Shown: piece by piece, positions 9,186 through 45,486 of the stretch
Position numbering within the stretch: position 1 is the stretch's first letter
Layout: each line of letters opens with the position of its first letter
Source of the DNA: Candidatus Acutalibacter stercorigallinarum
GTDB lineage: Bacteria > Bacillota > Clostridia > Oscillospirales > Acutalibacteraceae
NCBI GenBank assembly: GCA_019112625.1
Contig: DXIW01000047.1
Location: 1 to 64,000 of the forward strand
Reading direction: 5' to 3'
DNA length: 64,000 nucleotides
Translations under genes and position numbers: made by a program
The notes under the pieces: model-generated
Seen by the model: only the letters and a program-made list of their open reading frames with translations
What the model was told of the DNA's origin: nothing
Databases searched by the model: none

Positions 9186-9430
9186 AAGTTTTACTTTGCT
9201 GTGGCAAAACCGCGCTTTTTGCAGCCTCTATAAAAAATTCGCAGAATGAACCTCTTCCGCCGCCGCAACGCGATGCCGGAGGAGGTTTCTTGTCGAGGGG
9301 TCCCCACCCCCGTCTCGGCTGCCGGCTCGCTCGCTCCTGGCGGCCATCGTCCTCTTTGGAATCTCCGGCGAGGGCTAAGGACAGAGGAAGATAATTAGTC
9401 TTTTTGGTAATTAGGGCTTTTGGATGGGTA

Positions 9431-9587
9431 CCCCCTCAGTCACGACTACGTCGTGACAGCGTCTCGCCTGCCGGCTCGGTCGGCCGCTGGGCAACGTGCC
9501 ACCGGCACGCAGCGGCCCCCGCAGGGGGAGCCGGGACTTGCCTCCCCCTATGGGGGAGGTGTCATCGCAACGCGATGACGGAGGGGG
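9431..9587. repeat. Multi-arm palindromic element
   Basis: An outer pair CCCCCTC (9431) / GAGGGGG (ending 9587) encloses several hairpins: GTCACGAC/GTCGTGAC, a GCCGCTG...CAGCGGC arm, CCTCCCCC/GGGGGAGG, and GTCATCG/CGATGAC. It has the same plan as the cloverleaves at 31482-31578 and 35051-35149. Confidence 0.65.
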
Positions 9588-9604
9588 CGACTGGCCATGT
9601 GGTT

Positions 9605-9769
9605 CCCACCCCCTGCCCCCTCCCGTAAGGGAAATGAGCGAGAACAGATAATTTGTTTGTACGGGAGGGGGAGAATATTCTATACATCTCATTTCAAAGG
9701 GGGCGATGGTCGCCAGTGGCGACCGTCCATCGCCGACCGAGGCGGCAGCCGAGACCCGCCCCTTTGAAA
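9605..9769 (-). repeat. Module with TTTGAAATGAGAT core, minus orientation
   Basis: Read on the minus strand this contains CCCCCTTTGAAATGAGATG followed by TATAGAATATTCTCCCCCTCCCG, matching 31669-31710, 37975-38014 and 40837-40875. A TTTCAAAGGGG/CCCCTTTGAAA outer stem (about 9691-9769) encloses the GGCGATGG...CCATCGCC hairpin and the GACCGAGGCGGCAGCC motif found again near 31785 and 45190. Confidence 0.65.
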
Positions 9770-10089
9770 CCCCGTTGAAGGAGGCCGGGACTGAGCATGT
9801 CTCTGGGGGGGAAGGGAGCGGGGAACGATGGCCCCCTTTTTATGCCCCCGCGTGAGCGAGAACTGTCTCACAGTCATCTCCTTAAAATCCCGGCGGGCGA
9901 AGCCCAGAGGGATTTTCCTGTCCATGTCCGCACGAGTCAAGTTTCGCTTCATTCCACTCACTCGCGGGCACAGATTAAAAACCCCGGTTAGCGAACGAAG
10001 TGAGCGGATAGGGGTTTTTCCTGTCCATGTCCGCACGAGTCAAGTTTCGCTTCGCTCAACTTACTCGTGGCCACAGACCAAATGGGAGG

Positions 10090-10118
10090 TTGCACTTTTG
10101 GGCGGGGTATGGTATGAT
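10090..10118 (+). promoter_or_regulatory. Promoter of the 88-residue conserved protein gene
   Basis: TTGCAC (10090-10095), 17-nt spacer ending in the extended TGG, TATGAT (10113-10118), 38 nt upstream of the ATG. Confidence 0.7.
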
Positions 10119-10155
10119 GGAGGCCGAAAGAAAAAAGAAAAAGGAGGAAGATCCC

Positions 10156-10419
10156 ATGTCTCCAAAAATGGTCGAGCTGCACGACATCGACGTGCCAGCG
10201 TTCCTGAAAGTGCTGGACAGCTGCGAGGGCAACGTGTACCTGATGACCCGGGACGGCGACCGGCTGAACCTGAAGAGCAAGCTCTGCCAGCTGGTAGGCC
10301 TCACCGCCCTCATCGAGGGGGGGAAGATCGCCGAGGCCTTCGTCATGTGCGAGAACGAGGCGGACGAATCCAAGCTGTTCCGGTTCAACCTCTACAAGCA
10401 CACAGGAGAGGAAGAGTAA
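10156..10419 (+). CDS. Conserved small cytosolic protein, function unknown
   Basis: An 87-residue acidic protein. AAGGAGG at 10141-10147 and a promoter just upstream fix the ATG at 10156; the longer open frame from 10027 starts inside repeat DNA. It has no signal peptide, membrane span or recognisable catalytic motif. The composition (alternating charged and hydrophobic residues, VYLMTRDGDRLNLKSKLCQLVGL) suggests a compact alpha/beta fold. It precedes the ComEC-like gene by 32 nt and could share its transcript. I recall similar short proteins in related clostridia but cannot name a family. Confidence 0.8.
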   Translation: MSPKMVELHDIDVPAFLKVLDSCEGNVYLMTRDGDRLNLKSKLCQLVGLTALIEGGKIAEAFVMCENEADESKLFRFNLYKHTGEEE

Positions 10420-10451
10420 GGGCAGCCGCCCTTACCGGGAAATGAACGCCT

Positions 10452-11465
10452 ATGGGAAAACGGAACAGGACCCGCCCCCGGCCGGGAGGCAGGCGGGCCC
10501 GGAACGCCGGCTTCGGCGGGATGGGCGCTGTCTTTCTGCTGGCAGTGGTCCTTATTTTGTACAACCAGTTCGGCCCGGGCCGGCAGGAATCCGCCCCCGA
10601 CCCGGTGGCCCCTGTGGCGGTGCCCGAGGCCGGGCCCGGCATGGAGGACGGCCTGCAAGTCTACTTTCTGGACGTGGGCCAGGGGGACAGCGAGCTCATC
10701 CGCATCCCCGCCGAGGGGGACTACTTCAACGTCCTCCTGGATACCGGGGAGTACGCCTACGCCGACGGCCTCACCAACTACCTGCGGGACCTGGGGGTGG
10801 AGCGCATCGACGCGCTGATCTGCTCCCACCCCCACACCGACCACATGGGCTGTATGGCCCGCATCGTCCAGCGGTTCGACATCGGCAGCGTCTACATGCC
10901 CCTGCTGCCCGAGGACCAGACCCCCACCACCTCCGCCTACGAGGCGCTGCTGGACCGGGTGCTGGAAAAGGGCCTGGTCATCACCCAGCTCTACGCCGAC
11001 GTGCCCATCGACTGCCCCGCCGGGGCGGAGTTCCAGGTCATGGCCCCGGAAAAGGACGCGGTGTGGGACGACGTGAACAACTACTCCGCCGTCATCCGCT
11101 TAAGCTACGGGGAGACCAGCTTCCTCTTCACCGGGGACGCGGAATCCGACAGCGAGGAGCTGATTTTAGACGCGGGCTACGACCTGTCCGCCGACGTGCT
11201 GAAGGTGGGCCACCACGGCTCCTCTACCTCCACCTCCGAGCCCTTCCTGGCGGCCGTTGATCCCCGCTGGGCCGTCATCAGCTGCGGGAAGGACAACAGC
11301 TACGGCCACCCCCACCGGGAGACCCGGCAGCTGTTGGGGGACTGGCCCGGCCTTACCGTGTACCGCACTGACCAGGACGGCACCATCCTGGCCCAGAGCG
11401 ACGGGGAACAGATCACCTTTGAAACCGGCCTGCCCTCGGTGGAGGAGCGGACGGATTGGGACTAA
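10452..11465 (+). CDS. Membrane-anchored ComEC-type metallo-beta-lactamase-fold hydrolase
   Basis: A 337-residue protein. An arginine-rich N-terminus is followed by one membrane span (about 22-40) and a metallo-beta-lactamase domain. The domain opens with VYFLDVGQGDSELI, carries the metal motif SHPHTDH at 125-131, and contains NNYSAVIRLSYGETSFLFTGDAE and the distal ligand motif VLKVGHHGSS. This matches the extracellular C-terminal domain of the DNA-uptake channel ComEC, but the channel domain is absent. Solo proteins of this type are common in clostridia; nuclease or phosphodiesterase activity outside the membrane is inference. The start ATG has only a weak Shine-Dalgarno. Confidence 0.88.
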   Translation: MGKRNRTRPRPGGRRARNAGFGGMGAVFLLAVVLILYNQFGPGRQESAPDPVAPVAVPEAGPGMEDGLQVYFLDVGQGDSELIRIPAEGDYFNVLLDTGEYAYADGLTNYLRDLGVERIDALICSHPHTDHMGCMARIVQRFDIGSVYMPLLPEDQTPTTSAYEALLDRVLEKGLVITQLYADVPIDCPAGAEFQVMAPEKDAVWDDVNNYSAVIRLSYGETSFLFTGDAESDSEELILDAGYDLSADVLKVGHHGSSTSTSEPFLAAVDPRWAVISCGKDNSYGHPHRETRQLLGDWPGLTVYRTDQDGTILAQSDGEQITFETGLPSVEERTDWD

Positions 11466-11487
11466 ATCACAAAAGGGGAGAATGAAC

Positions 11488-12150
11488 ATGCTGACCCAGA
11501 GCAAAAAGGAATTTATCGAGTTCATGCTGTCTGCCAATGTGCTGCGCTTCGGCCACTTCGTCACCAAAAGCGGCCGGAACACCCAGTACTTCGTCAACAC
11601 CGGCAACTACAAGACCGGCGCCCAGCTGGCCCGGCTGGGGAGCTACTACGCCCAGCTGGTAAAGGACACCGTGGGCGGGGACTTCGAGGCCATGTTCGGC
11701 CCGGCCTACAAGGGCATCCCCCTGGCCTCCGCCTGCTCCATCGCCCTGTATAACGACCACGGCATCGACAAGCCCTACTTCTTCAACCGCAAAGAGGTGA
11801 AGGACCACGGCGAGGGCGGCGGCACCGTGGGCTACCAGCCCCAGGACGGGGACCGCATTATCATCATCGAGGACGTGATCACCGCCGGCACCGCCGTGCG
11901 GGAGACCATGCCCATCCTCAAGGCCTGCGCCGACGTGCAGGTGCCCCACATGTTCATCAGCGTGGACCGGTGCGAGGTGGGCCACACCCCCGGCAAGACC
12001 GCCATCATGGAGGTCCAGGAGGAGTTTGGCCTGCAGGTGCACCCCATCGTCACCGTGGTGGACATCCACGAGTACCTGAAAGACCATGGCACCGACCCGG
12101 AGCTGCTCAAGGCCATGGAAGGCTATATGGAGCAGTACTGCGTGCTGTAA
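11488..12150 (+). CDS. pyrE: PyrE, orotate phosphoribosyltransferase
   Basis: A 220-residue enzyme converting orotate and PRPP to orotidine 5'-monophosphate in de novo pyrimidine synthesis. The PRPP-binding loop is seen as RIIIIEDVITAGTAVRE; the N-terminal hood segment SGRNTQYFVNTGNY and the GPAYKGIPLA flexible-loop region are typical. GGGGAG at 11475-11480 gives correct spacing to the second ATG at 11488 rather than the first at 11482. It lies 22 nt after the ComEC-like gene and apart from other pyrimidine genes. A strong terminator follows. Confidence 0.95.
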   Translation: MLTQSKKEFIEFMLSANVLRFGHFVTKSGRNTQYFVNTGNYKTGAQLARLGSYYAQLVKDTVGGDFEAMFGPAYKGIPLASACSIALYNDHGIDKPYFFNRKEVKDHGEGGGTVGYQPQDGDRIIIIEDVITAGTAVRETMPILKACADVQVPHMFISVDRCEVGHTPGKTAIMEVQEEFGLQVHPIVTVVDIHEYLKDHGTDPELLKAMEGYMEQYCVL

Positions 12151-12167
12151 CAGCAAACCAAACAGCA

Positions 12168-12199
12168 AGGCCCCCGGTTTTTACCGGGGGCCTTTTTCT
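12168..12199. terminator. Bidirectional terminator between pyrE and the convergent hypothetical gene
   Basis: An 11-bp GC-rich stem AGGCCCCCGGT (12168-12178) pairs with ACCGGGGGCCT (12183-12193), followed by a T-run; the 3' end of the minus-strand gene touches it. Confidence 0.9.
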
Positions 12200-12607
12200 C
12201 TAGGGGGCGGTCTCTTTGGCGTTGTAATATTCCTTAACCAGCTCCCCCTCGCCGTCGGGGAAGCCCTCCCCGTCCCATAAGAGAACCAGCTGGGGCGGAG
12301 CGTCGTCACCATCGCCGTAGACAAAGAGCCAGCACAGCTCCCCCTCGTATGGCATGGGCAGCGAGTAGCAGACCGTGGCGATGCCGCTGCCCTCGTTTTT
12401 CCGGTGGACAAAGCTGCCGTACTTCTGGATGGGAGCCTTCTCCTCCAGCAGCTCCAGCACGTCCTCCTCCTGGATAACCCAGTCCGGTACCGCTGGGGGA
12501 TGGTAGTGCTGCCACAGCAGCGTGCCCCCCACCGAGATGGCGGCGGTGACCACCACGGCAACAAGCACCGCCATGACCGTGGCCTTTCCTGACTTTTTCG
12601 TTTCCAA
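12200..12607 (-). CDS. Hypothetical single-span membrane protein
   Basis: About 135 residues. TTG at 12607 is preferred as start because GAGGAGGTG precedes it with normal spacing; an in-frame TTG at 12625 overlaps that same Shine-Dalgarno. After a short basic N-terminus comes one membrane span (VMAVLVAVVVTAAISVGG). An acidic extracytoplasmic domain of about 100 residues follows with alternating beta-like segments (ATVCYSLPMPYEGELCWLFVY). It has two cysteines and no lipobox. No family is recognised. It is convergent with pyrE and downstream of, but not tightly linked to, the P-type ATPase. Confidence 0.7.
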   Translation of the reverse strand: METKKSGKATVMAVLVAVVVTAAISVGGTLLWQHYHPPAVPDWVIQEEDVLELLEEKAPIQKYGSFVHRKNEGSGIATVCYSLPMPYEGELCWLFVYGDGDDAPPQLVLLWDGEGFPDGEGELVKEYYNAKETAP

Positions 12608-12626
12608 CTGGCGGCACCTCCTCAAA

Positions 12627-12690
12627 AAAATCCCCCTGTTTCTCTGAGAAAAGCATATCAGCTTTTCTCCAAAAAAGCAAGGGGGATTCC
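12627..12690. terminator. Nested hairpin between the P-type ATPase and the small membrane protein gene
   Basis: An outer inverted repeat AATCCCCCT / AGGGGGATT encloses an inner hairpin GAGAAAAGC / GCTTTTCTC (about 12643-12666). It probably ends the ATPase transcript (minus strand), although the inner arm also lies at the 5' end of the next gene. Confidence 0.55.
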
Positions 12691-12718
12691 ATGAATTATT
12701 GTCGATTTTACGCAGGAC

Positions 12719-15175
12719 TTATTTCTGCCCGCTGTGCTTTCTGCGCCACAGCTTTTTGGGGTACACCGGGCTCTGCCGGTTGGCGATGACGTGGTCCACC
12801 AGGTGGAGCACCGCCAGCATGAACACCGTGGCGAACACCAGCATGGGGGCCAGGATCATCAGCATGGGCAGGGTCAGGGAGGTGAGGGAGAAGAACCACC
12901 CGAAGAACAGGAACGCCAGCACAAAGGCGGTGAGCAGCCCCCAGAACAGGAAGCCCCGCAGGCCGTTGAAGGGGGTGCACACCTTAAACAGCATGGTAAA
13001 GCCCGTAAAGGCGGTGAGCACCACCGCCAGGGTGGACATCTCCGGGTGGGTGAGGCCGAAGGGCTCGCTGAGGGCGCACAGCGCCACGATGTTGGCGGTC
13101 ATGGTCAGCGCCGCGGGGATGCACATGCGGATGACGTTTAAGATGAATTTGCCCTTCAGCCGGTCCCGGTTGGTCTCCAGCGCCAGGATGAAGGAGGGCA
13201 CCCCGATGGTAAGGGTGCTGATGAGGGTCTGCTGGATGGGCTCGAAGGGGTAGGTGTAGTTGATGAAGATGAACAGCACCCCGATCAGGGCGGAGAAGAT
13301 GGTCTTTACCAAAAACAGGGAGCTGGACCGCTGCAGGTTGTTGATGGACTGCCGCCCCTCCTGCACCACCCGGGGCATGGAGGCGAAGTTGGAGTCAAGC
13401 AGCACCAGGTTGGACACGGTGCGGGCGGCGTCGCTGCCCGAGGCCATGGCCACCGAGCAGTCCGCCTCCTTCAGGGCCAGCACGTCGTTGACCCCGTCGC
13501 CGGTCATGGCCACGGTGTGGCCGTCCTCCTTCAGGGCCTTGACGAAGGCCAGCTTCTGCTGGGGGGTCACCCGGCCGAACACCGCGTACTCCTTCACCGC
13601 CCGGCGGATGTCCTCCTCCGTCTCCAGGGTGGAGGCGTCCACGTACCGGTCGGCGTGCTCCAGCCCGGCCTTCCGGGCGATGTTGGCCACCGTCACCGCG
13701 TTGTCCCCGGAGATGACCTTCAGATCCACCCCCTGGTCCGCGAAGTACCGCAGGGTGCGGGGGGCCTCCCGGCGGATCTTATCGCTCAGCAGCACCAGGC
13801 CCAGGCACTCCAGCTCCCCGGCGGGCAGTGCCTTGTCCTGGAACTCCTCCGGGGAGTGGGCCACCAGCAGCACCCGCTGGCCCAGCTGGGAGTAGCCCTC
13901 CACCTGCTCCTTGATCTTGGAGAAACCCTCCCCCAGAATGAATTCCCCGGCGCCCATCACATAGGAGCCCTGGCCGGGGAAGAAGGCGCCGCTCCACTTC
14001 CGGGCCGAGGAGAAGGGCACCAGCTCCCCGGCCCGCCAGGGGCTGGGGGCAGGGAATTTCTCCCGGATGGCCTGGGAGGTGGGGTTGTCGTCGGCGAGGC
14101 TGCCCACCAGGGCGGTGAGGGCCGCCCCCAGCTCCTCCTCCGTGTGCCCGGCAAAGGGCGCCAGCCCGTCCACCTGCATGGTGCCCTCGGTGATGGTCCC
14201 GGTCTTGTCCAAACACAGGGTGTCCACCCGGGCCAGGGTCTCGATGCAGTACATGTCCTGCACCAAGGTCTTTTTGGCCGAGAGTTTTATCACGCTTACC
14301 GCAAAAGCCAGGCTGATAAGGAGCACCAGCCCCTCGGGGATCATGCCCACCATGGCGGCGGCGGTGCTCACCACGGAATTCTGGAAGGTATCGTGGAGCA
14401 CGAAGTACTGCTTCCAGAACAGCAGGCCCCCAATGGGCAGGATGGCGAAGCCGATGATCTTCACGATAAAGTCGATGGAGTCCATGATCTCCGAATTCCG
14501 CTTTTTGATGTACCCCGCGTCCCCGGCGATCTTCTGGGCGTAGTTGTCAGCCCCCACGTGCTCCACCTGGGCGGCGCAGCTGCCGCTTACCACAAAGCTG
14601 CCGGAGAGGAGGGAGTCCCCCTTCTGCTTCACCACCGGGTCCGACTCCCCGGTGATCAGGGACTCGTTGACCTCGCACTCCCCGTCGGCCACCACGGCGT
14701 CGGCGCAGATCTGGTTGCCCGAGGCCAGCAGCAGGATGTCGTCCAGCACCACCTCCTCGATGGGGATGCTCTGGCGCTGGCCCCCTCGCAGCACGTTGGC
14801 CTTGGGGGCGGAGATGAGGGACAGCTTGTCGATGGTGCGCTTGGCCCGGATGCCCTGGAAGGAGCCGATGAGGATGTTGGAGAAGATGACCCCCATGAAC
14901 AGGGCGCTCCGGGGGGAGCCCACCAGAATGACCGCCAGGGCCAAAGCGAAGTTCAACAAGTTGAAGAAGGTGAACACGTTCTCCCGGATGATCTGGCCCT
15001 CGGTCTTGGTCTTGATGCCCGTGTCCCCGTTGTCCAGGCCCTGGCGCTTCCGGGCGGCCACCTGGTCTAAAGTGAGGCCGGCGGCGGGGTCGGGCTGGTA
15101 GCGCTCCGCCGGGCGGCGGCGCTGGGATGGGGCCTCCCCGGGCCGGGGGGCCTTCTTGTCGCGTTTTTTAGACAA
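12719..15175 (-). CDS. P-type cation-transporting ATPase, CtpE-like
   Basis: An 818-residue membrane pump. Catalytic landmarks are the actuator motif TGES at 175-178, phosphorylation motif D323-KTGT and the hinge TGDGVNDVLALKEAD. The M4 helix carries MIPEGLVLL (about 278-286), which is the PEGL type of alkali-earth pumps. There is no CPx motif and no N-terminal heavy-metal domain. In overall plan it resembles the actinobacterial CtpE group, reported to move calcium, so Ca2+ is the best guess. A basic, Pro-rich cytosolic N-terminus precedes M1. Monocistronic, with a TG-extended TATACT (complement of 15221-15226) about 45 nt upstream. Confidence 0.9.
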   Translation of the reverse strand: MSKKRDKKAPRPGEAPSQRRRPAERYQPDPAAGLTLDQVAARKRQGLDNGDTGIKTKTEGQIIRENVFTFFNLLNFALALAVILVGSPRSALFMGVIFSNILIGSFQGIRAKRTIDKLSLISAPKANVLRGGQRQSIPIEEVVLDDILLLASGNQICADAVVADGECEVNESLITGESDPVVKQKGDSLLSGSFVVSGSCAAQVEHVGADNYAQKIAGDAGYIKKRNSEIMDSIDFIVKIIGFAILPIGGLLFWKQYFVLHDTFQNSVVSTAAAMVGMIPEGLVLLISLAFAVSVIKLSAKKTLVQDMYCIETLARVDTLCLDKTGTITEGTMQVDGLAPFAGHTEEELGAALTALVGSLADDNPTSQAIREKFPAPSPWRAGELVPFSSARKWSGAFFPGQGSYVMGAGEFILGEGFSKIKEQVEGYSQLGQRVLLVAHSPEEFQDKALPAGELECLGLVLLSDKIRREAPRTLRYFADQGVDLKVISGDNAVTVANIARKAGLEHADRYVDASTLETEEDIRRAVKEYAVFGRVTPQQKLAFVKALKEDGHTVAMTGDGVNDVLALKEADCSVAMASGSDAARTVSNLVLLDSNFASMPRVVQEGRQSINNLQRSSSLFLVKTIFSALIGVLFIFINYTYPFEPIQQTLISTLTIGVPSFILALETNRDRLKGKFILNVIRMCIPAALTMTANIVALCALSEPFGLTHPEMSTLAVVLTAFTGFTMLFKVCTPFNGLRGFLFWGLLTAFVLAFLFFGWFFSLTSLTLPMLMILAPMLVFATVFMLAVLHLVDHVIANRQSPVYPKKLWRRKHSGQK

Positions 15176-15399
15176 ATCGTATATCCTCCTACCGATATGT
15201 GACTGCGGTTTTCCCTACCAGTATACACCATACCGCCGGGATTGAAAAGGCGGAATTTCCAGCCCCCGCCTTGAAAATTCTACTTTTTCACGGTTTCCGG
15301 CCCCGTTTTGCCGAAGGCTTTTCCAAATATAGATAAAAACCAGGGGCGAATCCCCGAAAAACCCCGGAAATCAGGGCTTTTTCCGCCATTTTTGCAGAT
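15176..15399. other. Divergent intergenic region, no gene seen
   Basis: Between the divergent ATPase and beta-trefoil genes. The left part holds the ATPase ribosome-binding site (AGGAGG in the complement of 15183-15188) and its -10 box. The right part is AT-rich and carries only the promoter of the beta-trefoil gene. Confidence 0.6.
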
Positions 15400-15428
15400 T
15401 TGACAGAAAAGGTGAAAAAGCATATAAT
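15400..15428 (+). promoter_or_regulatory. Consensus sigma-A promoter of the beta-trefoil gene
   Basis: TTGACA (15400-15405), exactly 17 nt, TATAAT (15423-15428): a perfect consensus promoter, suggesting high expression. Confidence 0.9.
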
Positions 15429-15484
15429 GCAGGCAGAAACGCAACAGGTATCTTTCTATATTGGAGCGAAAGGACGAACCTATC

Positions 15485-16159: not shown

Positions 16160-16169
16160 ACTTCCCTGT

Positions 16170-16200
16170 GAGGACGGCCCCCGGGCCGTCCTCTTTTTTT
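16170..16200 (+). terminator. Terminator of the beta-trefoil gene
   Basis: An 11-bp stem GAGGACGGCCC (16170-16180) / GGGCCGTCCTC (16183-16193), then seven T. Confidence 0.95.
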
Positions 16201-16221
16201 CGCCCAAATTCCCCCGCCGCC

Positions 16222-16250: not shown

Positions 16251-16289
16251 TAGCACAGAACATCGATTTTTGGAAAGGCGGTTTGGAAG

Positions 16290-20993: not shown

Positions 20994-20996
20994 CAA

Positions 20997-21360
20997 ATCC
21001 CCAGGAGGATAAAGTCTTTTTTCGCATTTGCCCTCCGGATGAATCCCCTTCCGGCCCGGCTTTGTCGGGCCCCCTCCCCGAGGGGGCTGTCACGGCTTCG
21101 CCGTGACTGGGGGAGTTTATGCTTTCTCTTTTCCCACCCCCTGCCCCCTCCCATTGATTTCATTTTCTATAAGAGGCAGCCTCGTCACAACGGGAGGGGG
21201 AGTTATTTTTTTATATATGAAGTTTTTCAAAGGGCTGCGCCCTTTGGAACCCCTTTTGCAGTAAGCCAGGGCCCAGCGTGCCCTTGGGGGGTTTTCGGGG
21301 GGCTTTCCCCCCCTTGAACAAACTTGCCAAAAGAAAATTCCCCTGGGCGGTGGCGAAAGC
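20997..21360. repeat. Intergenic block 2: palindromic repeat modules
   Basis: Contains CCCCCTC/GAGGGGG and GTCACGGC/GCCGTGAC hairpins (about 21070-21107), then CCACCCCCTGCCCCCTCCC (about 21128) opening a minus-orientation copy of the CCCCTCCCG module. These are followed by a CAAAGGGC/GCCCTTTG hairpin and the CCCTTGGGGGG motif shared with 34790 and 45440. No supported gene. Confidence 0.65.
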
Positions 21361-22066: not shown

Positions 22067-22245
22067 TCTGTATCCAGACTGGATAGGAAAATCCCTCTGC
22101 AAGGCGCTTACGCCTTGCGCCGGGATTTTGGTCTGTGACCAGACAGGACAAGAAAATCCCTCCGCTGAAGGGCGCTCCGGGATTTTAGTCTGTGACCAGA
22201 CAGGACGGGAAAATCCCTCTGCACTTCGTGCGCCGGGATTTTAAG
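22067..22245. repeat. Three tandem hairpin repeats directly behind the yfbR stop codon
   Basis: Three units start with TCTGTRWCCAGAC at 22067, 22132 and 22189. In each, GGACARGAAAATCCC is followed by a variable GC-rich loop and then GGGATTTT, so every unit is an AAAATCCC/GGGATTTT hairpin; the loops differ (about 27, 19 and 18 nt). The same hairpin design recurs at about 9888-9916, 37702-37735, 37799-37832 and 41098-41190. Too few and too unlike each other for CRISPR. Confidence 0.75.
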
Positions 22246-31481: not shown

Positions 31482-31578
31482 CTCCCTCCGTCATCGCTCC
31501 GCGATGACACCTCCCTCACTGAGGGAGGCAGGCCCCCTCCATGAGGGGGCTGTCACGCCTCTGGCGTGACGGAGGGAG
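31482..31578. repeat. Four-armed cloverleaf palindrome
   Basis: Outer stem CTCCCTCC (31482-31489) / GGAGGGAG (31571-31578) encloses four back-to-back hairpins at 31490-31508 (GTCATCG/CGATGAC), 31510-31528, 31532-31550 and 31552-31570 (GTCACGCC/GGCGTGAC). The arms are separated by 0-3 bases. Same plan as 35051-35149. Confidence 0.8.
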
Positions 31579-32084
31579 TTGCCCTTCAAAAGCCCTAAAC
31601 ACCAAAAAGGATAATTTTTTAATCCCATTCCTCACCTGCGGGGGTTCCAAAGGGGGAGCGTCAGCTCCCCCTTTGAAATGAGATATATAGAATAATCTTC
31701 CCCCTCCCGTTGCGGAGTGGCTCCCTCCCACACAAACCATATCAACGGGAGGGGGGTGAGCGAGCGCCGGTGGCGCTCTGCCGCGAACCGACCGAGGCGG
31801 CAGCCGAGACGGGGGAGGGCACGAGTTATCCTCGCTCCCGCTCGGCTAACTCGCCAAGAACCACTTGGGAGTTTGCAAAACTCCCATTTTGCTTCGCAAA
31901 ACCGCGGTTCTTGCGGCTTCTATAAAATTTGCAGGATAAACCCCTTCCGGCCCGGCTCTACCGGGCCACCTCCCCCATAGGGGGAGGCAGGCCCCCTCTC
32001 CGAGGGGGCCGCCTCCGTAGGCGGCTGGGGGAGTCCCTGCCAGGAGCCCCCGCAGTCCCCAACTGCGCAAAAAAAGGGGAGGGC
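31579..32084. repeat. Remainder of intergenic block 4
   Basis: No gene. Holds a plus-orientation copy of the CCCCCTTTGAAATGAGATAT core module (about 31640-31760), the GAGCGAGCGCC...GGCGCTC hairpin with CGACCGAGGCGGCAGCC (about 31765-31815), and an AACTCCCATTTTGC segment (about 31875-31900) repeated near 37640. Another set of GGGGGAG/CTCCCCC arms is at about 31966-32033. The final CCCCTAAC borders the HAD stop codon. Confidence 0.6.
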
Positions 32085-34674: not shown

Positions 34675-34774
34675 GACCTGCTCTTACCCATTCGCCAGCG
34701 CAAAATAACCCCCTCCGCCGCCCCTGGCGGCACCTCCCCCACAGGGGGAGGCAGGCCCCATTTTCTGTAAGCTC

Positions 34775-34895
34775 GGGTCGAGCATGCCCTTGGGGGGTGC
34801 GAGGGGGGTCCTGGTGCCCAGTGGGCACCGTCCAGGACCGACCGAGGCGGGAGCCGAGACCGAAGCCCCGCCTCGTAGGAGTGGGTACGGGGGAG
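34775..34895 (+). repeat. Dispersed module, copy 1 (inverted copy at 45329-45451)
   Basis: About 121 bp that reads almost identically to the reverse complement of 45329-45451. It includes AGCATGCCCTT, a GGTCCTGGTGCCCAGTGGG hairpin, CGACCGAGGCGG and GCCCCGCCTCGTAGGAG. By eye only a handful of mismatches and one short length difference separate the copies. Confidence 0.85.
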
Positions 34896-35050
34896 TGCAC
34901 TCCCCCGGGGGGATACAAAGGGGGCTCGCCCCCTTTGAAAAACTTAATATAATAAAAAGTAAGGTCCCCCTCCCGCGCCAGCGCAGTCCCCTCCTAAAAA
35001 AGCTATTATGCGTGGGAGGGGGCAGGGGGAGGGGGCCACTAAGGAAGGAA

Positions 35051-35149
35051 CCCCCTCCGCCGCCCCCGGCGGCACCTCCCCCTGTGGGGGAGGCAAGTCT
35101 CGGCTCCCCCTATGGGGGAGCTGGCACGATTTCATCGTGCCTGAGGGGG
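35051..35149. repeat. Four-armed cloverleaf palindrome
   Basis: Outer stem CCCCCTC (35051-35057) / GAGGGGG (35143-35149) encloses the hairpins GCCGCC/GGCGGC, CCTCCCCC/GGGGGAGG, GCTCCCCC/GGGGGAGC and GGCACGAT/ATCGTGCC. Arm order and spacing match 31482-31578, but arm sequences differ with compensating changes. Confidence 0.8.
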
Positions 35150-37582: not shown

Positions 37583-38158
37583 TACGAGTCAAGTTTCGCT
37601 AGCGCTCAACTTACTCGGCCAAGAACCGCTTGGGAGTTTGTAAAACTCCCATTTTGCTTCGCAAAACCGCGTTTCTTGCGGCCCGTGGCCGGACAGGACA
37701 GGAAAATTCCTCTGGGCTTCGCCCGCCGGAATTTTGGTCTGCAAAAATTTCGTCCCCGCAAAACCGCGGTTCTTGCGGCCCGTGGCCGGGTAGGACAGGA
37801 AAATTCCTCTGGGCTTCGCCCGCCGGAATTTTGAGGACACCCCTTCCGTCATCGCTCTGCGATGACACCTCCCACTGTGGGGGAGGCGGGTCCAGCCTTT
37901 AAGGAGCCCAAAAAAGAAAAAGAGAATTGGAGTCAAACATGCCCTTACGGGGGTTCCAAAGGGGGCCCACGCCCCCTTTGAAATGAGATATATAGAATAA
38001 TTCTCCCCCTCCCGCGCCAGCGCAGCCCCCTCCTCAAAAAATGTGTACGCGTGGGAGGGGGTAGGGGGAGGGATATAGTATAGTAAGTATGCACCCCCTT
38101 CCGACCCGGCTCCGCCGCCCCCCTCCTTCGCTAAATCCACAGCCTCTCCACAACCAAA
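37583..38158. repeat. Intergenic block 6: repeats including a 97-bp-spaced direct repeat
   Basis: No gene. AAGTTTCGCTAGCGCTCAAC motif at about 37589, then near-identical segments of about 78 bp at 37660-37737 and 37757-37834, each ending in a GAAAATTCC/GGAATTTT hairpin. A GTCATCG/CGATGAC plus CCTCCC/GGGGGAGG pair is at about 37850-37887. The plus-orientation core module CCCCCTTTGAAATGAGATAT with its CCCCTCCCG...CGTGGGAGGGGG arms spans about 37950-38072. Confidence 0.7.
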
Positions 38159-38159
38159 A

Positions 38160-39886: not shown

Positions 39887-40412
39887 GGCAAAGTTCCTCC
39901 TTTTCCAAATACGCTGCCTGAAACCGCTTCCTCCCCCGGTGCAGCCGCTGCTTCACGCTGTCCTCGCTGATGCCCAGCGCCTTGGCGATGTCCCGCACCG
40001 AGAGCCCGTCGTAGTAAAACAACCCCAAGATCATCTGGTCCTCCGGCCGCAGGGAACGCAGTGTGTTGCCCACGTCCAGCGCCTGGTCCCAGTCCGGTAA
40101 GCTCCCGGCGTCCAACGCCTCCTCCAAAGGGCTGTGATTGTGCTTGCTGCGCAGGGAGCTGATATGGTAGCACTTGGTCATCAGAATGCGCACCAGCCAG
40201 GTCTTGAAATACCGGGGCTGCCGCAGCTTCTCCATACCCTGCCAGGCCTCCAGCACCGCGTCCTGTACTGCGTCCGCCGCGTCGTCGGGATTTTTTAAGA
40301 TGCCCATAGCCACCCGGGAGAGCATCCCCTCCTGGGAGAGCACCAGCCGGGTAAAGGCCTCCCGGTCCCCGGCCCGGGCCAGCTTCACCAGGCGCAAGAG
40401 TTCTTGTTCCAT
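39876..40412 (-). CDS. ECF-type RNA polymerase sigma factor
   Basis: A 178-residue group IV sigma factor. Region 2 includes NPDDAADAVQDAVLEAWQGMEKLRQPRYFKTWLVRI and region 4 includes DGLSVRDIAKALGISEDSVKQRLHRGRKRF. The ATG at the complement of 40410-40412 has AAGGAGGCGG at the right distance; the longer frame to 40451 lacks this. Co-transcribed with the anti-sigma gene. A perfect GTACCGGTAC palindrome lies about 30 nt upstream and could belong to an autoregulated promoter. Confidence 0.92.
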   Translation of the reverse strand: MEQELLRLVKLARAGDREAFTRLVLSQEGMLSRVAMGILKNPDDAADAVQDAVLEAWQGMEKLRQPRYFKTWLVRILMTKCYHISSLRSKHNHSPLEEALDAGSLPDWDQALDVGNTLRSLRPEDQMILGLFYYDGLSVRDIAKALGISEDSVKQRLHRGRKRFQAAYLEKEELCHEK

Positions 40413-40439
40413 CCTGCCGCCTCCTTTTTCCTCTCTTTT

Positions 40440-40449
40440 GTACCGGTAC
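40440..40449. promoter_or_regulatory. GTACCGGTAC palindrome upstream of the sigma factor gene
   Basis: Perfect 10-bp palindrome 28-37 nt upstream of the sigma ATG, in a region without a sigma-A -10 box. An autoregulatory element is plausible but unproven. Confidence 0.3.
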
Positions 40450-40451
40450 AC

Positions 40452-41213
40452 CTGTTAGATGCTTTCCCCCCCCAAAAAGGTGACCGCCTGGTTTTATTTT
40501 ACCCCCCGCCACCGCGCAGGACAAGCCATTCCCCCACTGCCGGCGGGCCCCTCCGCCATCGCTCCGCGATGCCGCCTCGCCCTGCAGGCGAGCAGTCACG
40601 GCGCAGCCGTGCCTGCGGGGCCCGCCCTATCGCCCCCCACTCCCGTCTCGCCTCCCCCTATGGGGGAGCTGTCACGCCATCGGCGTGACTGAGGGGGCGC
40701 GAATAAGCCCCGCAAACCCACCACGCCAAAAGGCCCCCTCCCCGAGGGGGCTGTCATGGCTGCGCCATGACTGGGGGAGTTTCTTTCACTTTTCGTTTTC
40801 CCTGCCCTTTCGGGGGTTTCAAAGGGGGCAACGCCCCCTTTGAAATGAGATGTATAGAATAGTCTCCCCCTCCCGCGCCAGCGCAGCCCCCTCTTTCACA
40901 AAAGTATGGGCGTGGGAGGGGGGTGAGCGAGCGCCAGTGGCGCTCTGCCGCGAACCGGTCTCCGTTGCCACTCCGGTCGGTCCTGGACGCGCCCCACCGG
41001 GGCGCAGGACCCGAGCCGGCAGGCGAGACGGGGGAGGGGACAATCAAGAAAGCGCCCTCCCTTCCGCCGCCCCTGGCGTGACGAAGGGAGTAGCCCTCAA
41101 AATTCCGCAGGGCGAAGCCCAGAAAAATTTTCCTGTCAGGCCCGGTTGCGCTTCCAAAATTCCGGAACGCCCTTTGTGGAGGAATTTTCTTGTCCTGCGC
41201 GGTCACGCGCAGA
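40452..41213. repeat. Intergenic block 7: palindromic repeat modules
   Basis: No gene. Cloverleaf at 40542-40626; CTCCCCC and GTCACGCC arms at about 40650-40698; CCCCCTC and GTCATGGC arms at about 40735-40778. The plus-orientation core module CCCCCTTTGAAATGAGATGT is at about 40820-40925, joined to the GAGCGAGCGCCAGTGGCGCTC hairpin (40925-40948). Two AAAATTCC/GGAATTTT-type hairpins (about 41098-41190) end the block just before the promoter of the D-amino-acid operon. Confidence 0.7.
40542..40626. repeat. Three-armed cloverleaf palindrome
   Basis: Outer stem GGCGGGCCCC (40542-40551) / GGGGCCCGCC (40617-40626). Internal hairpins are CATCG/CGATG, CTCGCC/GGCGAG and CACGGC/GCCGTG. Confidence 0.75.
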
Positions 41214-41242
41214 TTGCCCCCCAAGAAAAATCGTGCTATACT
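41214..41242 (+). promoter_or_regulatory. Promoter of the D-amino-acid operon
   Basis: TTGCCC (41214-41219), 17 nt, TGC-TATACT (hexamer 41237-41242), about 40 nt upstream of the GTG start. Confidence 0.7.
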
Positions 41243-41283
41243 AGAAAAAGCAAAGCCCCTCGTGGGCTGGGAGGAGTGAAAGC

Positions 41284-42432
41284 GTGAACGTGTTCCATGA
41301 GATCCGCGCGGGGCGGCTCCCCGTGCCGGAGACCCCCTGCCTGGTGGTGGACGAATCCCTGGCCCGGGAGAATATCGCCCGGGTGCAGCAGGGCGTCACC
41401 GCCGCGGGCTGTCAGCTGCGGCCCCATATCAAGACCCACAAAATGCCCTATTTCGCCCGGCTCCAGCTGGAGGCCGGGGCCGCGGGCATCACCTGCGCCA
41501 AGGTCAGCGAGGCGGAGGTCATGGCCGACGGCGGGGCGGAGGACATCTTCCTCGCCTATCCCATGGTGGGCGATTTCCGCATCAAGAGGGCCCTGGCCCT
41601 CAGCCAGCGGGAGCGGCGGCTCATCCTGGCCGTGGACAGCCTGGAGGGCGCCAAAGCCCTAAGCGACGCCGCCGCGGCCGCGGGCCTCCCCCTGGAGGTC
41701 CGGCTGGAGGTGGACACCGGGGCCCAGCGCACCGGCGTCCTCCGGGACCACGCGGTGGACCTGGCCAAAGCCGTGGCCGCCCTGCCAAACCTGCGGTTGA
41801 CCGGCATCTACACCTTCAAAAGCCTGGTGCTCCACGGCGCCCCCACCCAGGACAACGACGCCGCCGGGAAGGAGGAGGCCCAGCTCATGTACGATACGGC
41901 CCAGGTCATCCGGGCCGCCGGGGTGGAGGTCCAGGACATCAGCGTGGGCTCCACCCCCACCTGGCGCCAGGCGGCGGAGACCGGCCTGGTCACTGAGGTA
42001 AGGCCCGGCACCTACATCTTCGGGGACTGGATGCTCACCCGGGAACACTGCGCCACCTTCGACCAGATCGCCGTGCGGCTCTACGCCACAGTGGTGAGCA
42101 CCCCCGCCCCGGGCTACGCCATTTTGGACGGCGGCACCAAGACCTTCCCCATGGACATCCCCCTGGACGCGGAGCCCTACCACTACCCCGGCTACGCCAT
42201 CCCCATCGGGAAGGACGGCCAGCCGGACTGGAACGTCCAGCTCCGCCGCATGAACGAGGAGCACGGCATCCTCACCGCCCAAAACGGTGAGACGGGCCTT
42301 ACCGTGGGCCAGGTGCTGGAGCTGGTGCCCATCCACGTGTGCACCGCGGTGAATATGCAGAACCACGTGTTCGTGGCCCAGGGCGGGGCCCTGCGCCCCA
42401 TGGACGTGGCCGCCCGGGGGATGCTGGTATGA
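41284..42432 (+). CDS. D-threonine aldolase / D-serine dehydratase-like PLP enzyme
   Basis: A 382-residue fold-type III PLP enzyme. The N-terminal alanine-racemase-like barrel has the Schiff-base lysine K50 in RPHIKTHK; the C-terminal domain keeps the metal-ligand motif IHVCTAVN typical of the DSD1/D-threonine aldolase family. Expected reaction: cleavage of D-threonine to glycine and acetaldehyde, or dehydration of D-serine. The GTG at 41284 has GGGAGGAG at 41268-41275. First gene of a three-gene operon; its stop overlaps the next ATG (ATGA). The adjacent D-aminoacylase and RidA fit a role in D-amino-acid breakdown. Confidence 0.88.
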   Translation: MNVFHEIRAGRLPVPETPCLVVDESLARENIARVQQGVTAAGCQLRPHIKTHKMPYFARLQLEAGAAGITCAKVSEAEVMADGGAEDIFLAYPMVGDFRIKRALALSQRERRLILAVDSLEGAKALSDAAAAAGLPLEVRLEVDTGAQRTGVLRDHAVDLAKAVAALPNLRLTGIYTFKSLVLHGAPTQDNDAAGKEEAQLMYDTAQVIRAAGVEVQDISVGSTPTWRQAAETGLVTEVRPGTYIFGDWMLTREHCATFDQIAVRLYATVVSTPAPGYAILDGGTKTFPMDIPLDAEPYHYPGYAIPIGKDGQPDWNVQLRRMNEEHGILTAQNGETGLTVGQVLELVPIHVCTAVNMQNHVFVAQGGALRPMDVAARGMLV

Positions 42433-44003
42433 TCCACATCAAAAACGTGACGATCTGCGACGGCACCGGCCGGGAGCCCTTCCCCGGGGAGCTTTTGCTG
42501 GACGGGGAGCGTATCGAAGCCGTCAGTGAAACACCTTTGGGCGATCTGGACGCCGAGACCATCGACGGGGCTGGCATGACCGCCACCCCCGGCTTTATCG
42601 ACGCCCACCGCCACTGCGACCTGGCCGCCCTCTTCGACCCCAACTTCGGGGAGCTGGAGCTGGCCCAGGGCCTCACCACCGTGGTCATGGGCAACTGCGG
42701 CCTGGCCCCCACCCCCAGCACACCGGAGACCCGCCAGGCCCTCTACGACTTTATCGAGCCCTGCCTGGGCAAGGCCCCGTCCGGCAGCGCCTTCCCCAAA
42801 GTCTCCGACTTCCTCCGCGCCCTGGAGAGCCGCCCCCACCCCCTGAACCTGGGGGTGCTGGGGGCCACCGGGGCCATCACCACCGCCTGCAAGGGCTACG
42901 GGGACGTGCCCTTCACCGCGGACACCCGCAGGCAGGCGGAAGCCTACGTCCGGGACGCCATGGAGGCCGGGGCCCTGGGCCTCTCCTGCGGCATCATGTA
43001 CACCCCGGAGTGCTACAGCGCCACCGAGGACTTCGCCTTCCTGGCCAAAATCGCCGGGGAGTACGGCGGCTATCTCACCAGCCACATCCGGGGGGAGGGC
43101 AACTCCCTCACCCAGTCCGTGGAGGAGGTGCTTGAAATCGGCCGGCAGGCCGGGGTGGGGGTGAACATCAGCCACTTCAAGGTGACGGGGCTCAAAAACC
43201 ACGGCTGGGGCATCGAACAGGCCATCGCCGCCCTGGAGGCCGCCCGGGCCCAGGGCCAGGACGCCACCGCCGACGCCTACCCCTACCCGGCAGGCTCCAC
43301 CACTATTTTGTCCCTGGTGCCCCCCACAGTGGTGGCCGCGGCCGGGGGCGACGTGTGCGCCTTCCTGGCCACCCGCCCGGGGCGGGAGCTGCTGGAAACA
43401 GAAATCACCAAAGAGTTTGACGGCTGGGACAACATGGTGTCCTCCATCGGCTGGGAGCGCATCTCCATCAGCTCCGTGACCGCCGAGGAGGACCGGCCCT
43501 TCGCCGGCCTGGACTTCACCGCCGCCGCGGAAGCTGCCGGGGTCTCCCAGGCGGAGCTCCTCTGCGGCCTGGTGGCCCGCAGCCAGGGCAAGGTGGGGGT
43601 CATTCTCCAAAGCATGGCCCAGGCCGACGTGGACCGGGTGCTCACCCTGCCCTGGGTGTCCCTCATCTCCGACGCCCTCTACGGCGGCGGGGACATGCCC
43701 CACCCCCGGCTCTACGGGGCCTTCCCCAAGTTTTTGCGGGAGTATGTCCGGGAGCGCTCCCTCCTCACCTTCGGCCAGGCGGTGCGCAAGATGACCAGCC
43801 TCCCCGCGAAACGCCTGGGTCTCAAGGACCGGGGCGCCCTGCTCCCCGGGTACTACGCCGACCTGCTCCTCTTTGACCCGGCCAAATTCACCGACCGGGC
43901 CACCTTCCAGAACCCCAAGCGGCTGGCCTCCGGCCTCGCCCGGGTATTCGTCAATGGGACCGACCCGCGGCACCGCAGCGGGAAACTCATAAAACGCAAC
44001 TAA
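42429..44003 (+). CDS. N-acyl-D-amino-acid deacylase (D-aminoacylase)
   Basis: A 524-residue amidohydrolase that removes acyl groups from N-acyl-D-amino acids. The zinc site is seen as H60-R-H62 in PGFIDAHRHCD, a cysteine in MGNCGLAPTPS, then histidines in TSHIRGEG and ISHFK, and an Asp in LISDALYGGG. These match the D-aminoacylase subgroup, which uses a cysteine ligand. A C-terminal beta-domain returns with PGYYADLLLFDPAKFTD. Start ATG 42429 overlaps the previous stop by 4 bp. No signal peptide, so it acts on imported or internal substrates. Confidence 0.92.
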   Translation: MIHIKNVTICDGTGREPFPGELLLDGERIEAVSETPLGDLDAETIDGAGMTATPGFIDAHRHCDLAALFDPNFGELELAQGLTTVVMGNCGLAPTPSTPETRQALYDFIEPCLGKAPSGSAFPKVSDFLRALESRPHPLNLGVLGATGAITTACKGYGDVPFTADTRRQAEAYVRDAMEAGALGLSCGIMYTPECYSATEDFAFLAKIAGEYGGYLTSHIRGEGNSLTQSVEEVLEIGRQAGVGVNISHFKVTGLKNHGWGIEQAIAALEAARAQGQDATADAYPYPAGSTTILSLVPPTVVAAAGGDVCAFLATRPGRELLETEITKEFDGWDNMVSSIGWERISISSVTAEEDRPFAGLDFTAAAEAAGVSQAELLCGLVARSQGKVGVILQSMAQADVDRVLTLPWVSLISDALYGGGDMPHPRLYGAFPKFLREYVRERSLLTFGQAVRKMTSLPAKRLGLKDRGALLPGYYADLLLFDPAKFTDRATFQNPKRLASGLARVFVNGTDPRHRSGKLIKRN

Positions 44004-44030
44004 AATTTTTTTCAGAAAGGGACGATCACA

Positions 44031-44495
44031 ATGAGTAAGATCGAAGAAAAACTGCAAGCCCTGGGCCTCACCCTGCCCCAGCCCCCCGCCAAAGGCGGCC
44101 TGTACACCCCGGCCAAGCGCTTCGGGGAGAAGCTGGTGTACATCTCCGGCTGCGGCCCCTCCGTAGACGGCGCCCCCATCGTGGGCAAGCTGGGGGAGGA
44201 GGTCACCCAGGAGCAGGGCTACGGCTACGCCAGAGACAGCATGCTCAACGTCCTGGCCGTGCTCAAGGCCGAGGTGGGCGACCTGGACCTGGTCAAGTGC
44301 CCGGTGAAGGTGACCTGCTTCGTGGCCTCCACCCCGGACTTCTACGCCCAGCCCCAGGTGGCCAACGGCGGCACCCAGCTGCTCATCGACCTGTGGGGCC
44401 AGGAGGAAGGGGCCCCCAGCCGCTCCGCCATCGGCATGAGCGTCCTCCCCGGCAACATGCCCGTGGAGACCGAGGCCATCTTCGAGCTGAAATAA
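44031..44495 (+). CDS. RidA/YjgF-family enamine/imine deaminase
   Basis: A 154-residue RidA-superfamily protein that hydrolyses reactive 2-aminoacrylate-type intermediates made by PLP enzymes. The key arginine is kept in GAPSRSAIGMSVLPG and the following acidic residue in VETEAIFEL. AGAAAGGGACG precedes the ATG. It closes the operon with the PLP enzyme and D-aminoacylase, which suggests it clears imine or enamine products released by the first enzyme. The fit is stronger if that enzyme is a dehydratase rather than an aldolase. Confidence 0.88.
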   Translation: MSKIEEKLQALGLTLPQPPAKGGLYTPAKRFGEKLVYISGCGPSVDGAPIVGKLGEEVTQEQGYGYARDSMLNVLAVLKAEVGDLDLVKCPVKVTCFVASTPDFYAQPQVANGGTQLLIDLWGQEEGAPSRSAIGMSVLPGNMPVETEAIFELK

Positions 44496-44510
44496 GCCCA
44501 AAAACAACAC

Positions 44511-44542
44511 AATCCCCTGGCATTTGCCAGGGGATTTCTTTT
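44511..44542. terminator. Bidirectional terminator after the RidA gene
   Basis: An 11-bp stem AATCCCCTGGC (44511-44521) / GCCAGGGGATT (44526-44536) followed by TCTTTTC, shared with the convergent DUF3784 gene. Confidence 0.85.
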
Positions 44543-44549
44543 CGCGCTA

Positions 44550-44882
44550 TTATTTCCGGAACCGCCCGCCGGTGTTGGCGTACACCACGGCGAACAGCGC
44601 CAGGGCGGTGATCACCGCGAAGTAGGCCTTGGGCAGCCACCCGATATGGAAGATGCCCCCCACCGCCACCGCGGGGGACAGCAGCCCCACCGGCAGCAAA
44701 ATCTTCCCCACAAACCGGCACAGGGCCTTCTCGTCGTACTTGGCCTGCTCTTTGGGGGGCATGGTGTTGTACCCGGCAATGAGGAACCCGCCCTTGCCGC
44801 AGAGCAGCACCACCGCCAGCGCCACCAGCACCACGCCGATGAAACACGTCAGCACCAGCCCGCCCACATCGCTGCCTGTCAT
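44550..44882 (-). CDS. DUF3784-type small membrane protein
   Basis: A 110-residue protein with three predicted spans. The linker GYNTMPPKEQAKYDEKALCRFVGK is the hallmark of the DUF3784 family (the N-terminal half of SdpI-like proteins). The function is unknown; relatives sit beside transport or immunity genes. AAAGGAGGTG favours the ATG at the complement of 44880-44882 over the in-frame GTG three codons earlier. Monocistronic. Confidence 0.82.
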   Translation of the reverse strand: MTGSDVGGLVLTCFIGVVLVALAVVLLCGKGGFLIAGYNTMPPKEQAKYDEKALCRFVGKILLPVGLLSPAVAVGGIFHIGWLPKAYFAVITALALFAVVYANTGGRFRK

Positions 44883-44899
44883 TCCCGGCACCTCCTTTG

Positions 44900-45486
44900 C
44901 GGTAAAAAGTCAGCTGATTTGTACTCCCTCTGCCGCCTGCGGCGGCATCTCCCTCAAAGAGGGAGGCTGGGTCTCGCCTGCCGGCTCGGTCGGTTCGCGG
45001 CAGAGCGCCACCGGCGCTCGCTCACCCCCTCTCTGAGGGGGCTGTCATGGCTGCGCCATGACTGGGGGAGTTGCCCTTAAAAGCTCAGAATACCTGAAAG
45101 ATAGAATTTTCCCGCTCTGGGGGTGGTAAGCCTTCCGCCACTCTTTACTGCGCTTTCTTCTTAGCACCATTTCCTCAAAGGGGGACAGGGTCTCGGCTGC
45201 CGCCTCGGTCGGCGATGGATGGTCGCCACCGGCGACCATCCATCGCCCCCCTTTGTATCCCCCCACGGGGGAGAGGTCTCACCTGCCGGTTCGGTCGGCG
45301 TTGGGAAAGCGCCACCGGCGCTTAACGCCTCCCCCGCACCCCCTCCTACGAGGCGGGGCTCCGGTCTCGACTGCCGCCTCGGTCGGTCCTGGACGGTGCC
45401 CACTGGGCACCAGGACCCCCCTCGCACCCCCCGTAAGGGCATGCTTGACCCGGGCTCACGATAGAGTTCTTTCCTGCCCCTACGAA
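44900..45486. repeat. Intergenic block 8: palindromic repeat modules
   Basis: No gene. A multi-arm element runs from about 44928 to 45072 and has a GAGCGCCACCGGCGCTC hairpin inserted. Next are the GCGATGGATGGTCGCC / GGCGACCATCCATCGC hairpin (about 45208-45246) with its GGCTGCCGCCTCGGTCGG leader, a CCCCCGTGGGGG-like arm, a GCGTTGGGAAAGCGCC arm, and the dispersed module at 45329-45451. Confidence 0.7.
45329..45451 (-). repeat. Dispersed module, copy 2 (inverted relative to 34775-34895)
   Basis: Reverse complement matches 34775-34895 over its whole length with a few substitutions and a short insertion near CCCCCCGTAAGGGC. The pair encloses about 10.4 kb. Confidence 0.85.

Follow-up and report, generated by a model that had tools for sequence, protein, structure and literature searches.

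Element C, a short palindromic repeat of Clostridia and phages best read as a new family of non-autonomous mobile elements

The locus and its repeats

The DNA considered here (the window, 64,000 nucleotides) covers the initial 64 kb of a 79-kb contig from Candidatus Acutalibacter stercorigallinarum (DXIW01000047.1), the draft genome of which (GCA_019112625.1; 2.19 Mb, 70 contigs, 86% complete) is referred to as G000, with other genomes and loci given by G and L handles. Its large intergenic gaps carry recurring palindromic modules, one of which, element C, is the main subject of this work. A preliminary description of the window had stated that such modules fill nearly every large gap and had taken them for non-autonomous mobile elements. 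Self-comparison was carried out on the window together with a further 356 kb of its genome (420,364 bases in all, some 19% of the draft); repeat densities in this sample are not representative because the stretches were mostly chosen from C-bearing contigs. Runs with at least three matches (E up to 1e-6, match length up to 600 nt) covered 12,332 of the 420,364 bases, and all 18 such runs of the window (18/18) lay inside the eight gaps named in that description, so that the statement stands for those eight gaps, the scope of checking. Six module families (A, B, C, D, E and G) were seeded by eye and extended with iterative nhmmer in the same sample, yielding 30, 43, 43, 27, 32 and 19 matches, respectively. 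In the gap at 22.07-22.57 kb, described as built from palindromic modules like the others, only D matches were found among the six.

The TTTGAAATGAGATRTATAGA core reported earlier was recovered exactly at 31671, 37976 and 40838 (+) and at 9677-9699 (-), and the CGACCGAGGCGGCAGCC motif at 9733-9755 (-), 31788-31810 (-), 34838-34860 (-, one mismatch), 45190 (+) and 45364 (+), with more copies in the window at 9461, 40958, 44971 and 45276. The motif does recur, but what had been described as a motif with interchangeable hairpins is really one structured element, C, the left part of which is the reverse complement of CGACCGAGGCGGCAGCC. The copies of C in the window are as follows.

9461..9517, +: copy of C in its 57-nt form, within an A-type module that is interrupted (its left part being 9432-9469, +)
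9702..9755, -: element C, lying in the 5' palindrome loop of a B module
31755..31810, -: element C, 3'-terminal in a B module
34807..34860, -: element C
40958..41011, +: element C surrounded by weaker inverted C matches (40927-40951, -, E 0.08; 40979-41029, -), either nested or paired
44971..45026, +: element C flanked by one A module and one inverted A module
45190..45247, +: element C, stem lengthened
45276..45329, +: element C
45364..45417, +: element C

Anatomy and secondary structure of C

Element C has the layout GTCTC-NNN-TGCC-N'N'N'-TCGGTC followed by a bulged hairpin, GG..CC, and is mostly 54-57 nt long, starting with NTCTC (mostly GTCTC) and finishing with CC. Its first hairpin, h1, has 3 bp and the loop TGCC here, with 3-nt loops in some other families, and the second is closed by GG:CC and has a 4-nt bulge and an ACN loop. 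Extra hairpins are tolerated in the bulge or loop, an extra hairpin in the bulge giving a three-way junction in other species, and model matches are 52-80 nt long, cut or partial ones apart. A second small hairpin, ACTTGGC..GCCAAGT, recurs inside C loops and elsewhere in G282 (L145-L152).

The three helices of C covary strongly. In 32 distinct copies (alignment A1, drawn from 136 motif copies as those 54 nt long with a good closing stem, all rows showing the 4-nt bulge), 98.8% of 512 cells were paired, compared with 74.6 +/- 1.3 in shuffles; 120 cells had changed on both sides against 36 expected, and the covariation was 0.637, compared with 0.184 for shuffles and 0.03-0.11 for slid versions of the structure. 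One further analysis took 72 of the 136 motif copies. A second set of 60 distinct rows, mostly from other genera and phages, was 95.1% paired with a covariation of 0.474 against 0.131, this alignment and the junction alignment used below being fitted to the model and therefore leaning towards its structure. G-U cells were found at 9/1266 and 6/870 (together 15/2136), compared with 54/639 in 30 tRNA calls from the fetched loci (duplicates included). This near-absence of G-U pairs makes the constraint look DNA-like, and points to C acting as DNA or to hairpin-templated repair. Folding as single-stranded DNA gave the closing hairpin in five of five copies (z -2.3 to -3.7) and h1 in four of five minimum structures, a rival small hairpin replacing h1 in the copy at 45276-45329. 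At Rfam gathering cut-offs C had no match, the window giving only the small signal recognition particle (SRP) RNA and five C loci only tRNA and rRNA; a permissive search of the five loci returned 12 matches, none of which reached its gathering score, and the best two (E 0.003 and 0.006) did not lie on C. A self-cleaving ribozyme like that of hepatitis delta virus was considered as a candidate and found no Rfam support.

Filled and empty insertion sites

The mobility proposed in the preliminary description is supported in part. The support is for C, for which filled and empty homologous sites, self-nesting and 0-259 motif copies per genome argue; A, B, D, E and G are described here as repeat modules. 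A phage tail terminator gene in L205 has a net gain of 66 nt over its next 11 homologues, in which the site is empty; its match measures 396 nt, and no other among the best 80 of 150 matches exceeds 336 nt. A phage methyltransferase gene in L144 differs from that in L295 by a net +63 nt (685 of 751 bases identical), and its homologue in L142 bears two insertions, of +66 and +63, the first at the site used in L144. Among nine other methyltransferase loci aligned, both sites are empty in seven and the whole stretch is missing in two; L398 has C at the second site of L142, as seen in its own frame only. In all five phage-gene copies (one in the tail terminator, four in the methyltransferases of three contigs) C runs antisense to the gene and leaves the reading frame intact. 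Within the methyltransferase family (L142 567-760, L144 8805-8869, L398 2434-2498) there are two sites, each filled in two different contigs, which may reflect a hot spot or inherited insertions.

In host DNA, C breaks the T-loop part of a tRNA-Trp 3' fragment in L083, the intact version of which is found in L103. Three loci (L103, L084 and L393) each hold a C-broken tRNA fragment about 170 nt from an unbroken one, the sequence to the right of C departing from the tRNA, and L172 has two tandem C pairs in tRNA-Pro-like fragments adjoining an intact tRNA-Pro. Such tRNA 3' fragments, of the kind left by integrative elements, contain C at L103 1470-1728, L084, L393, L172 and L035 5600-5730. T-arms within 45 nt of C were detected at 4 of 158 unique sites and at 70 of 8600 random positions, a weak signal from a count that misses T-loops broken by C. 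Insertion of C into C was seen at TG^CC of the h1 loop, with three complete cases found by script, four with the left half only, and one by eye (L146:7869). Window copies of C are lodged in other modules, one in a B palindrome (9702-9755) and one in an A module.

Five filled sites with empty homologues could be resolved to the base; in each, C was inserted just before a C with replacement of 2-3 host bases ending in C, and none showed a target duplication. In the orientation of an element ending in CC, the bases lost were TC (L144), TC (second site of L142), CAC (L205), AAC (tRNA-Trp, L083) and GCC (first site of L142, the next base differing). For self-nested copies, a reading in which the host retains its CC and the body measures 52 nt is equally possible. 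Among 143 of 164 sites (those ending in CC, distinct, and with flanks long enough), position +1 after the element was C at 86%. Flanks rejoined across the element folded at -11.31, compared with -9.74 for mispaired flanks (standard deviation 0.22; best of 200, -10.43).

Distribution of C in bacteria and phages

The left-part motif of C occurs 53 times genome-wide at up to three mismatches, and the B core TTTGAAATGAGATRTATAGA 25 times at the same tolerance, the reversed-pattern control giving 0 in both cases. The modules are thus present throughout the genome and not only in the window, a point on which the preliminary description had made mobility depend. The motif was found in 26 of 29 genomes of the genus, at 0-259 copies each (reversed-pattern control 0), with 259 in G282, 178 in G323, 99 in G305, 72 in G217 and 52 in G000 in this count, and none in G125, G312 and G317. 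In the family, 52 of 300 genomes had it at up to two mismatches, the reversed pattern giving one match overall. The full model matched in 23 of 391 genomes of the class under seven family codes, copy numbers being lower bounds since at most 14 candidates were scored per genome under stricter filters.

Fifteen phage copies were examined, 12 from IMG/VR contigs and three from GenBank records; L384 (E 1.5e-4) was left out of the viral set as chance and L408 was put in by eye. A 65-base C query matched three phage records and no plasmids, a 57-base query matched nothing in the phage and plasmid search, the 22-residue peptide encoded by C had no match in phages, and a longer DNA pattern of C had none in IMG/VR.

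The comparison of sister sites advocated in the preliminary description bears on the gap between the genes for malic enzyme and an energy-coupling factor (ECF) transporter, which in the nearest relative (L120) differs in module set and orientation. This gap holds A, G, C, B and A modules in the present genome; in G305 it has D, a pair of C matches that overlap on opposite strands, a fragment of A, and B in inverted orientation. In nine of nine other genomes of the genus with both genes adjacent, the matches to the two proteins either overlap or are separated by no more than 214 nt, and no module was matched between them; the comparison covered fetched loci of 20 of 28 relatives, which are different species rather than strains, with profiles built in this work that may miss divergent forms. 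Both this comparison and the genome-wide counts speak for mobility.

The other modules

Module A consists of a CCCTCC arm followed by two hairpins, which in 18 copies were paired at 97.9% of cells; in 32 cells both sides had changed, compared with an expectation of 10.5. Its covariance model matched in 76 of 381 genomes of the class (at most 16 candidates scored per genome under stricter filters, so that copy numbers are lower bounds). Module A is class-wide, and may be a class-wide element resembling repetitive extragenic palindromic (REP) sequences. It often occurs in inverted pairs (window 31483-31577 and 35052-35148; L031-L050). Beyond the present genome, G305 gave a single copy of the B core, and 27 other genomes of the genus gave none. 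Module D is an AAAATYCC...GGRATTTT hairpin that forms short head-to-tail arrays (window 22070-22242, 37684-37832 and 41099-41207).

9539..9586, -: module A (CCCTCC arm and two hairpins)
21067..21114, -: module A
31483..31577: inverted A pair (31483-31530, + and 31530-31577, -)
31942..31989, +: module A
34710..34753, +: module A
35052..35148: A pair (35052-35095, + and 35101-35148, -)
37841..37888, +: module A
40649..40778, -: two A modules (40649-40696 and 40731-40778)
44925..44968, +: module A
45022..45069, -: module A
9617..9772, -: module B (palindrome with TGAGATRTATAGA core and CCCCCTCCC arms), C inside
21145..21252, -: module B, divergent core
31642..31754, +: module B
34910..35021, +: module B, divergent core
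37951..38060, +: module B
40814..40921, +: module B
22070..22242, +: head-to-tail array of three D modules
37684..37832, +: D modules at 37684-37735 and at 37781-37832
41099..41207, -: D modules at 41099-41146 and at 41156-41207
9884..10027, -: D modules at 9884-9924 and at 9978-10027
37585..37681, +: module E
31831..31916, +: module E

Elsewhere in the window, positions 4987-5084 encode the bacterial small SRP RNA (Rfam). Outside the eight gaps lie a coding low-complexity stretch at 15.9-16.1 kb and, at 55461-55786, two 160-nt direct repeats, 87% alike, with a spacing of 166 nt and unrelated to the modules. The nearest named match of the trypsin/PDZ protein of the window was in Candidatus Acutalibacter pullistercoris (75% identity).

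Search for a mobilising enzyme

The preliminary description had remarked on the lack of a REP-associated tyrosine transposase (RAYT), and the finding extends to the genome, in which no Y1 transposase match was obtained from the 86% complete draft; the Pfam scan for transposases in the window took in 20 open reading frames, some of them shadow frames. Searches for Y1/RAYT, IS110 and reverse transcriptase had working controls, and three candidates were compared with copy number across the 29 genomes of the genus, 11 of which have at least 20 copies of C. Y1_Tnp matched in nine of the 29, including G282 and G323, with a Spearman coefficient of 0.27 (p = 0.16) and no match in seven of the 11; G301 and G315 (99% complete) are among those without it, and G125 has two Y1_Tnp matches and no C. 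For IS110 the coefficient was -0.07, with none in six of the 11 (sub-cut-off matches taken as present), and for reverse transcriptase (RVT_1) it was 0.15, with none in five of the 11 (G000, G300, G304, G305 and G323). None of the three tracks copy number, and all were rejected as mobilisers. G300 (60% complete), G304 (95%, 20 copies) and G305 (86%) lack Y1, IS110 and RVT_1 alike; in G000 neither Y1 nor RVT_1 was matched, and IS110 gave a single sub-cut-off match. The Y2 (IS91) transposase gave no match in the 29 genomes, nor in the control genomes, which makes this negative uninformative.

An autonomous form of C carrying a gene was also discarded, since of 166 motif hits in the fetched loci the 18 without a full model match included none that opened onto a gene, being by eye cut by the end of a contig or stretch, extended by extra hairpins, degenerate, or chance. 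No gene was common to the neighbourhoods of C in low-copy genomes and phages, and the genes beside L083, L084 and L103 differ (relaxase, amylase and glycosidase). In G302, a one-contig genome, a C copy and an integrase gene are separated by about 300 nt, and a second copy lies near a sub-cut-off integrase remnant; these two of its three copies have nearly the same flanks beside the integrase gene (L196) or the remnant (L197), and L196 also has LytTR and GHKL regulator genes. A viral copy (L140) has a serine recombinase nearby, and another copy (L393) a tyrosine integrase.

Possible origins of the C insertions

Taken together, C is probably a mobile element of non-autonomous type that acts in the form of folded DNA and is moved by a putative trans-acting enzyme. 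This enzyme would recognise the folded C strand and join it to targets in which C's are available for pairing with the GG of the element; the targets observed include the h1 loop of C itself, further palindromes, fragments of tRNA and genes of phages. The mosaic make-up of the gaps would come from C landing inside palindromes such as A and B, which offer it sites. A wider proposal is put forward tentatively, namely that Clostridia and phages host DNA hairpin transposons of 50-80 nt, moved by a kind of enzyme not yet linked to transposition, which target by GG-CC pairing, replace 2-3 host bases, nest in their own loops, break tRNA fragments and add in-frame peptides to phage proteins. Several observations weigh against the main reading, mobility of C as folded DNA. 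No mobilising enzyme was found for C among the families tested, and the orientation relative to local GC skew, a proxy in draft contigs, showed no significant bias (46 to 37, p = 0.38), where a lagging-strand mechanism predicts such a bias. One closing-helix pair is unpaired in 22 of 55 rows of the second, wider set, hairpin-templated repair could be another source of the few G-U pairs, and the common ancestry of C copies makes cells and sites non-independent; some of the nested pairs may have moved together as a unit. The exact base lost is ambiguous where host and element share C's. The preference for hairpins is not strict, the phage-gene targets having no obvious ones, and at least seven pairs across the junction were counted at 63 sites, compared with 51.6 +/- 4.8 in shuffles, some of which were higher (maximum 66). 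As flanks are often those of one repeated host module and shuffles exceeded 63, the folding of flanks is supportive only.

Four other explanations were weighed. That C is a REP-like element moved by a Y1 HUH transposase (IS200/IS605, RAYT), since lost in some carriers, would account for its bulged hairpin with a conserved unpaired motif, for insertion without duplication and for Y1_Tnp in some genomes, the two richest in C among them; it is nonetheless unlikely, given the poor correlation, the many Y1-free carriers and the reverse case of G125, and C has no GTAG tag and shows no significant lagging-strand bias by GC skew. A similarly low probability attaches to enzyme-free template switching during replication at stalled hairpins, in which nascent GG would anneal to the CC of a distant C copy, be extended by copying and return. 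Such switching agrees with a right junction at C's, small target deletions, hairpin contexts and self-nesting, and with the failure of any tested transposase to correlate with copy number, but free switching back would not give a left end that is nearly always NTCTC, and conservation of the motif across several families and phages implies a recogniser. Copying of C back from a small structured RNA by a reverse transcriptase in trans, as for a short interspersed nuclear element (SINE), fits the conserved structured core and the small target deletions, yet is highly improbable in view of the rarity of G-U pairs and of the five C-rich genomes without RVT_1. Least credible is the idea that the modules are host regulatory structures (terminators or RNA processing sites) spread by recombination and are not mobile DNA: the modules of the window do sit between genes and C does fold into a stable hairpin, but in-frame phage-gene copies have empty homologues, C is inserted in tRNA fragments and the copies in one another, copy number ranges widely within the genus, no Rfam family matched at gathering cut-offs, and position next to orthologous genes is not conserved in the one orthologous gap examined.

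Relationship to known repeat families

The spread of short palindromic repeats without a nearby transposase is a long-standing question. With its defined ends, strict structure, filled and empty sites resolved to the base and congeners ranging from no copies to 259, C renders that question testable by providing both a bait and a comparison set. It also adds about 21-22 in-frame residues to phage proteins, an effect already reported for Rickettsia genes and seen here in phages that belong to Clostridia. The literature searched, most subscription papers lying outside its scope, contained none of six strings taken from C, B and A and showed no description of such repeats in Clostridia.

REP sequences and REPINs, as presented in PMC3733652 and PMC8266576, are short, often bulged palindromes with a conserved unpaired motif, present in high copy and often paired; the mobility of the GTAG type is assigned there to an HUH transposase, with none known for the CGTC type, and the text of PMC3733652 mentions neither Firmicutes nor Clostridi. 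Like REP, C is a bulged palindrome of high copy number (as in G000), other forms of C having a longer bulge. Unlike REP, it combines two hairpins, inserts into copies of itself and is present in phage genes. In contrast to the GTAG type, it lacks an unpaired GTAG end tag; unlike RAYT-mobilised REP, it is multi-copy in G000 and other high-copy genomes without a Y1 match; and unlike the CGTC type, it has no CGTC tag and mostly CCA tail at either end on either strand. Bacterial miniature inverted-repeat transposable elements (MITEs), which according to PMC10969869 are marked by terminal inverted repeats and target-site duplication, resemble C in being short, non-autonomous and multi-copy, whereas the ends of C (GTCTC... 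and ...CC) are not inverted repeats and its five resolved sites show no duplication. The MRSC-65-2 motif (PMC11109978), a mobile or repeat candidate, is described as a covarying single long stem with a UYCCGG repeat, often in dozens of copies per genome and possibly acting as DNA; C shares the covarying stem and the many copies, and differs in combining h1 with a bulged hairpin and in its other conserved letters. Rickettsia palindromic elements (RPEs), small palindromic elements found in frame within unrelated genes (PMC10969869), are matched by C in its in-frame insertion into tail terminator and methyltransferase genes; by description, C differs in being mostly 52-80 nt long rather than about 150 bp, in its occurrence in Clostridia and phages, and in replacing 2-3 host bases. 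Element C is best read as a new family of non-autonomous palindromic mobile elements that works like REP and RPE and fits neither definition.

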